Assembly: GCA_014825775.1 (NCBI GenBank)
Contig: MVAQ01000033.1
Location: forward strand, 1-64,000
Direction of reading: 5' to 3'
From: Krasilnikovozyma curviuscula
Lineage: Eukaryota; Basidiomycota; Tremellomycetes; Cystofilobasidiales; Mrakiaceae
Length of the DNA: 64,000 nucleotides
The position numbers and the translations under genes are program-made. Each line of letters begins with the position of its first letter. The stretch's first letter is position 1. Positions 44,206-48,411 of this stretch are shown here, piece by piece. The notes under the pieces were generated by a model. It had not been told where the DNA came from. It worked only from the letters and a program-made list of their open reading frames with translations, and did no database searches.

Positions 44206-47200
44206 ATGTTGGCCCAACGACTTGCCCACCGGACGACGTTCGAAAGGGACGTAGGCACCCAGACGAGCTTGAGCTTCGAAACAAGTTCGTCTATCCGAGA
44301 AGAAATCCTGGCCCTCATTGCTGAGGAGAACGAGATGATGGATGACAAGAGTGAATTGTATGACGATGAGGAAGATGACGATAGAAGGTATCATGATTTA
44401 CAGAGGGTGAGTCTACCAAAGCCCCATTCCTCCTCAATCCTTTCTTGCGAATTCTCTTATCGCTGGTTGGGACGAATCATAGTTCTTATCATTCCCCATT
44501 ACAAGGAGCACTAATTTGATTTTGTGTTTATATAGGATCACTATGACCACCTTCTGGATCCAAACTATGACTACCACCTATTGATTCGAGAAGAGCTTGC
44601 TCTCCAACAATGGGAGCGCACGCACGGTAACCCGTCCATCGGGCCCACGCTCGACACAGGATACACAAACTCTGAAAGTGGGAGAAGCAGTCCAGGTTAC
44701 GATGTGACGTATGAAGATCTGATTCAGGAGGAGGAGGAGGACAGCGTGTATGCTGAAGTCAGAGCGGCGGTCTCAAACACCGGTGAGCATTGTCAAGCCA
44801 AGACAAGGCTGCTATTGCTTAGAATCACTCACTGACATTCTTCTATTGTTGATGAAGATGATTCAACGTGAGTTTTCTTCTCTGAAGAGTCCTGACCAGG
44901 CTTTCTATTTTGTTAAGCCCCCGCTGACTACGATCCTACTCCTCCGCCACAGAATCCCAACAAACACATTCAGAGTATGGGTCCTGTGTTTCTTTTGGTC
45001 ACTCCTTCTCTCAGGAGTCAACCAGTTTTTCTAGTAAGTCGACGTCCCCCTAATCTCAATCTTTAATCTCAAGAAAAATTTCGGCTTTGCTTACTCGAAG
45101 TAAACGTCACTTCCCCTAGTTTCCGGTATCCGTCGGTCAGCGTTGGTTCTTTGGTCGTACAGCTGTTGTGCTACCCGATGGGGGTTTTTATGCATCAAGT
45201 TCTTCCTCCTCATCCTTGGTTCAATCCAGGTCCTTTCAACAGTATGTCCAACCAAGTCGCGCATATCTAGGTCTCTAATCACAATTCACTAATGCCGTTT
45301 TGTTCGCTGTTGATAGTCAAGGAGCACACTGTTATTGTGATTGCTGGAAATGTATCTCAGGGAACAGCCTGTGAGTGAGACTTTCGTCCCACGACTTGCT
45401 CGTCCTGGTTCCTAACATTAGCTGTTGATGCAAGACGCCACGAACATCATCACAGTGCAGCGGTTCTTTTACAACCAGCAATGGAGTTTTGGGTACCAAA
45501 TTCTCCTTGTCCTCTCGACGCAGCTAATTGGGTTCTCCGTCGGAGGGCTCAGTCGTCGCTTCCTGGTCTGGCCGGCAGCAATGATCTGGCCGGCGTCCCT
45601 CGTTAACACAGCGCTCCTGAACACGCTCCACTCGAGCCATTTGGGGTCTAGCGTCACAGGTCAGATTTCAAGGTCTCAGTTCTTCTACAGAGTCACTGGA
45701 GGCATCTTTTTGTGGCAGTGGTTCCCGAGCTACCTCTGGACAGCGCTGAGCAGCTTTGATTGGGTCACTTGGATGTGAGTTTTCAGAACACTGACAATCT
45801 TCAGCATGCTTTATAAAGATGTTGACTGTTAATCGCTCTTTTTAGTGCACCTCAAAACGTCGTCGTCAGCCAGATTTTTGGGTACAACAGTGGAATGGGA
45901 CTCTCACTGATCACCTTCGACTGGGGCCAGATCTCATCGATAGGGAACCCGTAGGCTTAACACTTTTTAGAAGCTATTTTTATGGCTGACTGTTCGCTCA
46001 ATCTCCGTAGGCTAGCAACACCTTGGTGGGCAGGCGCCAATATGACTGCAGGTTTTATCTGTTTCATCTGTATTCTCTACCCTGCTTTGTAAGTCGTTCA
46101 ACATAAGCTAAAGCTTATTGGACAAAACTGATTCTATTCTCTTCTTGACAGATACTATAATGGTGTATTCTACGGCTGGTATTTACCGATGTTCTCGTCC
46201 AGCAGTGTGAGTTACGGCGAGAATGACTTTCACCTTTTCAGGGAACTGAATTGACTCCCCTTTCCTAGTTTGATAATCAAGGGCAGACGTACAACGTCTC
46301 TAGGATTCTCACTGCAAATGCTGGGTTCAACGAGACGGCCTACAATGTAGGTTGTCGTCCTCGTGGTTCTACGAGAATTGAAACTGACTGAATTCTATGA
46401 TAACTTGTAGGAATATTCTGATATTTACGTCTCACTATCATTCGCTATGAGTTACGCACTCTCCTTTGCTTGTGTCATCTCTACGCTCGTTCACACATTT
46501 CTTTACTACCGCCAAACTGTGCGTATTATTTCCTCCATGTCGCGTCAGTAACTGAACGTGAGGTTTTTCTTTAGATCTGGAGACAGCTCAAGCGGACTCT
46601 CAAAGATGAAAATGATATCCACGCGCGGCTGATGATGAAATACACAGAAGTGCCCAGTGAGTCGTTTTTTCTGCTCTTCCATGCAGCGAACACCGACGCG
46701 TTGTGTCTATTCTAGACTGGTGGTACGCGGTGACATTCTTCGTCAATCTCGGTTTCGCCTTAGGTGTCGTTATCGGTTGGCCGACTCAGATGCCTGTCTG
46801 GGCACTGTTTTTGGCGCTCGCGGTCGCGTTCTTCTTCGCCCTGCCGGTCGGGATAGTACAAGCTGTTAGTAGTATTCTTCTTTCCAACTGTGATAAGAAC
46901 TGACTTTCACGGCTTTCTGTAGATTACTAATCAGCAAGTTGGTCTCAACGTCGTGACTGAGCTTATAATGCAAGTTTTAACTTGACAATCCCTCCCTTAG
47001 GCTCAAAACTAAGACGCAGCTCTCTTTGTATCTTTAGCGGCTACGCCAACCCAGGCCATCCAGTATCAATGATGATTTTCAAAACGTACGGCTACATTAC
47101 TCTCACCCAGGGCCTTAATTTTGCAAATGACATGAAGGTAAGTAGTAACACAGTGTTGCCGAATTCTTCTTTTTCTTACGTACAGTCACACTTACAACCA

Positions 47201-48411
47201 TCAGCTTGGTCATTACATGAAAAGTAATTTCTCTTCTTCCTTCTCGAACTGTAGTCATATGTGCTGACTTGGTTTGTTCTTGACAGTGTAAAGTCATTTA
47301 GGTGTCTCAATCACCACTTCCTTCTGCTGACCTTTTTTTAATTGTATCTAGACCTCCTCGAGTGATGTTCCTTTCTCAGATGCTCTCAAGCATATTGTGC
47401 TGCTTCGTTCAAGTTGCTGTTAGTGAATGGATGTACCACAACATTGTAAGTCAACGCCCTGACGACAATCGTCCCTGATTGTCGTGCTGATACTTTGCAT
47501 CTTATAGCCCAACATCTGCACATATCAGTCTTGTCAGTGGTATCTCTGGGTTCTGAAGTGTTTCTACTCTGACATTGCTTTCTCTTATTCGAACATTCCT
47601 TGCTCGATTATCAGCCAATTTCTGGGTGCGTTCACTGTGACTCAAAATCGCAGGTATCTTGCTAACAAACTATTGCTTATCACCTTCAGTGTCCATCAAC
47701 TCAAACTTTCGGCACCTCTAGCGTCCTTTGGGGCCTAGTGGGCCCGAAACGACAATTCAACGCTGGTCAACTCTATTCACCAACGCTATACGGCTTTTTA
47801 GCTGGTGCTGTACTTCCAGTACCATTTTACTACCTCGCCAGGAAATATCCAAAGGCTTGGTTCAAGTTTGTCAACATCCCTGTCGTTTTTTCCACTACGG
47901 GTTTGGTACCGCCTTACTTTGCCATCAACATCGCCTCGTTCTGCTACACAAACTGTAAGTAAAACAGTCATCACTTCGAGCATCAACGCCTGACGTTTAC
48001 TTTATTTTTGATAGTTATCTTCCAGTATATAATACGGCGGACCAAATTCGTGTGGTGGAGTCGATTTAGTGAGCTCCCCCTTCTTCTCGGCAACTTACCG
48101 CAATACAACTGACGGATTTTTGTTCAGACTATATCCTCAGTGCTGGACTTTCGGCAGGATATGCGATAGCGGTCATTATCATCTTTTTCACACTGCAATT
48201 CCCTCTGAACGGATCGATTGGGGCTGATTCTGTCAACTCCTGGTGGGGCAATACGTAAATATATCAAGTCAAAATCACCGAAAATCAAAACCTTCTGATT
48301 TTTATTGTTCCATTCTATTACAGAGTGTATACCAACACAGCCGACTATAATTCCTGGGCGTACAAACGGCTCCCCGAGGGAGCTAAGTTCGGTCCTGGTG
48401 GGCTCAATTAA
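44206..48411 (+). CDS. OPT-family oligopeptide transporter (about 25 exons)
   Basis: Proton-coupled oligopeptide transporter of the OPT/Isp4 family at the plasma membrane. Exons: 44206-44406, 44536-44782, 44858-44867, 44953-45033, 45120-45241, 45317-45370, 45435-45774, 45846-45950, 46011-46088, 46152-46206, 46269-46346, 46411-46518, 46575-46656, 46716-46864, 46923-46969, 47038-47137, 47205-47223, 47287 (1 nt), 47352-47445, 47508-47532, 47615-47625, 47690-47954, 48015-48068, 48128-48254, 48324-48411; 846 aa. Seen: acidic N-terminus, TIPTNTFRVWVLCFFWSLLL, NPGPFNIKEHTVIVIAGNVS, YATNIITVQRFFYNQQWSFG, GWPTQMPVWALFL, ELIIGYANPGHPVSMMIFKT, FANDMKLGHYMKIPPRVM, LWGLVGPKRQF, FSTTGLVPPYFAINI. Intron 46970-47037 begins with GC. 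The single-base exon keeps the frame and yields the expected KIPPR. About 14-16 membrane segments are implied. Confidence 0.93.

Follow-up and report, generated by a model that had tools for sequence, protein, structure and literature searches.

A candidate one-nucleotide exon in the KIPPR motif of a fungal oligopeptide-transporter gene

A nuclear one-nucleotide exon supported by RNA reads has been described in the CYP621A P450 genes of Fusarium (PMC12940212, 2026). Two plant genes are likewise reported to contain exons of a single base, APC11 of Arabidopsis (PMC4674806) and VPS55 of land plants (PMC8831610). In mitochondria, a one-base exon has been described in placozoan cox1 (PMC5436844), and two group II introns of a fungal rnl gene are separated by a single base (PMC12308204). 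Small exons, down to 6 bp, are reported for P450 genes of the basidiomycete Phanerochaete (PMC1184071). Among the open-licence papers listed by our searches there was no one-base exon from a basidiomycete, a scope that leaves the absence of such exons unproven.

Here we describe a candidate for such an exon, the T at position 47287 of an OPT oligopeptide-transporter gene. The gene lies on the forward (+) strand of a 64,000-nucleotide stretch of Krasilnikovozyma curviuscula DNA (the window), to which all coordinates refer. Like that of Fusarium CYP621A, the candidate exon lies in a nuclear fungal gene. In both, the single base forms the middle of a codon within a conserved motif, PKG in CYP621A and KIPPR in the OPT gene, with a phase 1 intron before it and a phase 2 intron after it, and the span is that of about two short introns (139 nt in Fusarium, 128 nt in the OPT gene). 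Whereas the Fusarium base is a G, is conserved in many Fusarium orthologs and is backed by RNA, the OPT exon is a T, predicted in one genome, and belongs to a transporter of a probable basidiomycete rather than to a P450. In the APC11 account the frame also depends on the one-base exon, which has AG and GT on its flanks. However, APC11 is a plant gene, its base is an A within 422 nt of intron sequence, and the exon has been demonstrated with cDNA as well as with substituted bases in protoplasts. The VPS55 exon was overlooked by annotation and preserves the frame, as here, but it is described as conserved across plants, its donors are strong (GTRAGT), and some plants have two transcript forms. 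In placozoan cox1 the single base restores a conserved residue, in that case His, yet the introns described there are mitochondrial group I introns and thus non-spliceosomal.

The OPT gene occupies 44206–48411 and was modelled by hand from the sequence as 25 exons running from start to stop codon. The spliced model comprises 2,547 coding nt and encodes 848 amino acids without an internal stop. It matches the Pfam OPT profile PF03169 with 610.8 bits over profile positions 2–622 of 623. The OPT family is described with two motifs, NPG and KIPPR (PMC9131082, PMC8836122). Both are present in the model, as ANPGHP and MKIPPR, and together with the full-length profile match they place the gene in this family. 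The assembly that contains the window measures 22.4 Mb in 387 contigs. An Rfam search of the window gave no match at gathering scores.

A homolog search returned 2,918 proteins over threshold, and the best 120 of these were used for site counts. The first-ranked homolog among the matches listed is a plant record of 1,471 amino acids with 39% identity. Leaving this record aside, the top homolog is a Phaffia rhodozyma protein with 61% over the searched region, and 61% is also the highest identity to the OPT protein among the matches listed. Aligned end to end, the Phaffia protein and our model agree at 509 of 879 aligned positions (58%) and have the start residues MLAQRLA in common. This match, together with the density of introns, suggests that the window comes from the order Cystofilobasidiales. 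No solved structure matching the Phaffia homolog by sequence was found.

A further small exon of the gene, 10 nt long (ATGATTCAAC) at 44858–44867, found alike by the hand model and by alignment of the Phaffia protein, is required for the conserved stretch NTDDST-IPTNTFRVW. A GC-AG intron at 46970–47037 (GCAAGT...TTTAG), likewise present in the hand model and the Phaffia alignment, lies immediately upstream of the NPG motif. The structure of 47508–47689 is uncertain: the hand model places exons at 47508–47527 and 47615–47636 with two introns, the Phaffia protein favours a single intron at 47550–47689, and the frame is kept in both versions. The first intron of the gene (44407–44535), situated where the N-terminal sequence is poorly conserved, is modelled at 129 nt, roughly double the usual length, and it might conceal a further small exon.

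The NPG motif is encoded by the exon at 47038–47137, which reads GYANPGHP...NDMK. The exon that follows, at 47205–47223, is only 19 nt long; it encodes LGHYMK and ends AAA A, the last letter being the first base of an Ile codon. Intron A (47224–47286, 63 nt, phase 1) runs from GTAATT to GACAG and contains a putative branch motif, TGCTGAC, at 47262–47268 with its branch A at 47267. After the proposed one-nucleotide exon, intron B (47288–47351, 64 nt, phase 2) runs from GTAAAG to TCTAG and carries the same putative motif, TGCTGAC, at 47325–47331 with its branch A at 47330. The exon at 47352–47445 then opens with A CCT CCT CGA, where the A would supply the third base of the Ile codon ahead of PPRVMFLSQ. 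On re-reading the sequence, the positions and letters that the first-pass annotation had assigned to these exons and introns and to T47287 proved correct, as did its placing of a GCTGAC motif, the putative branch, in both introns. With this arrangement, the spliced sequence from 47038 to 47445 would be expected to contain CATTACATGAAAATACCTCCTCGA.

The reading frame and the homologs both point to T47287 as coding. With this T included, the split codon becomes A-T-A, which encodes Ile and yields HYMKIPPRVMF. When all 128 nt between the flanking exons (47224–47351) are spliced out, translation instead gives HYMKNLLE followed by a stop, which bears out the initial observation that a single 128-nt intron breaks the frame. 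Retention of either intron A or intron B singly also leads to a stop codon. Within the 128 nt there are 24 pairs of an AG with a following GT or GC that could delimit an internal exon, four of which have a length of 1 mod 3 (31, 49, 10 and 1 nt). Only the 1-nt exon is free of stops; the other three contain them. The first-pass annotation had claimed that no other insertion of such a length restores the frame without a stop. This holds for internal exons, but the claim overlooked an exon extension with a single intron at 47261–47351, which keeps both the frame and the Ile.

Conservation of the Ile site narrows the options further. Among the best 120 of the 2,918 homologs, the site is occupied by Ile in 85, by Val in 34 and by Leu in one, and none has an insertion after YMK. 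The proposed check of the site against homologs thus gave Ile or Val in 119 of the 120 listed, the Phaffia protein having Val. These counts use a motif pattern that matched all 120 listed homologs; two stricter patterns matched 116 and 117 of them. Since the first and third bases of the codon are both A, only T yields Ile, Val or Leu. The genome contains 23 OPT-like loci elsewhere (L003, L011, L014 and L032–L051). In all 23, the codon at this site is unbroken and ungapped, encoding Ile in 13, Val in seven, Leu in two and Ala in one. The motifs of L036, L037 and L039 have diverged, and the alignment of L039 is poor (score 84). Several of the 23 loci share with the window gene the intron at the DMK/LGHY boundary.

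The same conservation bears on whether the locus could be explained by another single intron, either one whose donor or acceptor is shifted so that part of the motif is lost, or one with a non-canonical junction. Between 47205 and 47445, thirteen single introns are conceivable that keep the frame and create no stop. However, all of them except 47261–47351 delete IPPR residues that every one of the 120 listed homologs keeps in some form, and a codon split directly between the two exons at non-canonical sites would encode Ser or Arg, not Ile or Val. We regard this explanation as very unlikely.

To place the two proposed introns among their kind, splice sites were scored against a training set of 164 introns. 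These came from the OPT gene described here and from its paralogs and were picked by flanking alignment only; the resulting percentiles are rough, because some of the introns are probably misplaced. The donor of intron A scores 5.77 bits (21st percentile of the 164) and its acceptor 7.92 bits (66th). The acceptor of intron B scores 8.69 bits (77th). Its donor, GTAAAG, is weak at 0.99 bits (8th percentile), or 2.25 bits once intron A has been removed (8th), and lacks G at position +5, as do only 21 of the 164 training introns. Conversely, the acceptor score of intron A drops slightly, from 7.92 to 7.28 bits, if intron B is removed first. Training introns measure 50–80 nt in 137 of 164 cases and at least 128 nt in six, and 88 of the 164 have CTRAY 12–45 nt upstream of the acceptor. 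Introns A and B are plausible at 63 and 64 nt, with good acceptors and with donors that, although weak, fall inside the range of the training set.

A bare AG-T-GT at usable spacing is common by chance: when the 3′ end was kept constant, 7,994 of 40,000 shuffles (20%) contained one. With acceptor and donor scores near those observed and a preceding CTRAY branch, the layout arose in 143 of 40,000 shuffles (0.36%). In a stricter test that shuffled the entire core, a comparable layout arose in 4 of 20,000 shuffles, and 128-nt windows slid across the 64 kb on both strands contained one in 4 of 18,216 cases.

In the alternative overlooked by the first-pass annotation, a single 91-nt intron at 47261–47351 (GTGCTG...TCTAG) would leave 47224–47260 exonic and add 12 residues, giving HYMK-SNFSSSFSNCSH-IPPR. 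The frame and the Ile are preserved in this version, without a stop, but a matching insertion is found in none of the 120 listed homologs and at none of the 23 paralogous loci. It also loses 18.1 Pfam bits, scoring 593.6 against 611.7 for the one-base exon when the N-terminal tail is left off in both. The donor of the 91-nt intron reaches −0.67 bits (4th percentile), and the GT of this donor sits next to the TGCTGAC of intron A. Within the sequence that the 91-nt intron would turn into coding sequence, 47230–47260 is intron-like: 2.6% of exon pieces score as high, compared with 22.6% of intron pieces. In-frame rivals of this type are frequent by chance (7,086 of 40,000 shuffles, 18%). Given the Pfam loss, the lack of an insert in homologs, the intron-like stretch and this chance frequency, we rate the 91-nt intron well below the one-base exon and consider it improbable.

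A custom spliced protein-to-DNA aligner provided a further view of the locus. It charges one flat cost per intron, with an extra charge for GC donors, allows frameshifts and one-base exons, and does not model splice sites. With only the Phaffia protein as query, it recovers the OPT gene together with a one-base exon at 47287. Over the whole gene this exon was chosen at intron costs of 8, 10, 12, 15, 18, 20 and 21. At a cost of 22 it ties with the 91-nt intron, which is then the one reported, and at 24 and 26 neither is used. With the 120 listed homologs aligned over 46701–47530, the one-base exon was chosen in 119 at a cost of 20, in all 120 at 12 and in none at 30. If one-base exons are forbidden, the 91-nt intron is reported instead for 114 of the 120 listed homologs (cost 20) or 119 (cost 12). 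A specificity run at cost 18 over the 23 other OPT loci, covering 13,834 codons and 321 introns, produced no one-base exon. These results show that the one-base exon fits without being forced. As the outcome depends on the intron cost, we did not accept the aligner on its own as proof.

The same specificity run included 2 frameshift steps in its 13,834 aligned codons, so that frameshifts do occur in alignments of other OPT loci, and introns of at least 128 nt do exist (6 of the 164 in the training set). Both bear on the alternative of one 128-nt intron combined with a base missing from the assembly, or with a real frameshift, in the junction codon. Such an event would have to hit one split codon in an otherwise intact gene, and lengthening the AAAA run by one A would produce Lys rather than Ile or Val. 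It would also have to be a coincidence that the right base is flanked by a good internal acceptor, a branch and a donor, an arrangement seen in the 143 of 40,000 shuffles given above. We therefore judge a lost base or frameshift to be very unlikely.

T47287 is probably a constitutive one-nucleotide nuclear exon between two ordinary short introns. Apart from this site the gene is intact over its full length, the Ile is conserved, the introns have typical lengths, good acceptors and the same putative branch motif, and nearly the same anatomy has been confirmed by RNA in Fusarium CYP621A (PMC12940212). The interpretation of the first-pass annotation is thus supported as the best account of the DNA and protein evidence.

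On this one-base-exon reading, introns A and B, in phase 1 and phase 2, would split a single A-T-A codon for Ile within KIPPR. Each is short, with its own donor, branch and acceptor, and would be recognised across the intron; as each carries a full set of signals, exon definition would not be needed. A single base separates the acceptor AG of intron A from the donor GT of intron B, so splicing factors could not occupy both together and removal would be stepwise. Removal of A before B appears likelier, because the score of donor B rises as its context changes from AGT/GTAAAG to AAT/GTAAAG, whereas acceptor A falls if B goes first. Skipping of T47287, or retention of either intron, would lead to an early stop.

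The exon may have arisen when a second intron was gained beside an existing one. Alternatively, as proposed for Fusarium (PMC12940212), a base may have been lost and a cryptic exon then adopted. Introns A and B resemble each other no more than random intron pairs do (their global score is reached by 30.1% of such pairs, their local score by 36.0%), and searching both against the genome gave no second match at E values up to 10, very common words being skipped. An origin by tandem duplication or from a mobile intron was rejected on these grounds.

A more speculative proposal, which we consider doubtful, is that the one-base exon serves as a checkpoint in splicing and that such exons recur in the intron-saturated Cystofilobasidiales. 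Since transcripts that skip the exon or retain either intron would meet an early stop, the amount of transporter might be set by how efficiently the weak donor GTAAAG is used. Extreme intron density might let new introns land next to old ones within one codon.

T47287 probably joins the one-base exons already established, for which there is precedent even in fungi. If confirmed by RNA, it would add to the nuclear one-base exons of fungi and, within the literature searched, would be the first from Basidiomycota, in what is apparently the most intron-dense fungal order, the Cystofilobasidiales. It would lie in a signature motif of a large transporter family. If the prediction is true, gene finders with a minimum exon length would break such genes, and one more lineage would have short-intron recognition that tolerates exons too small to hold exonic signals.
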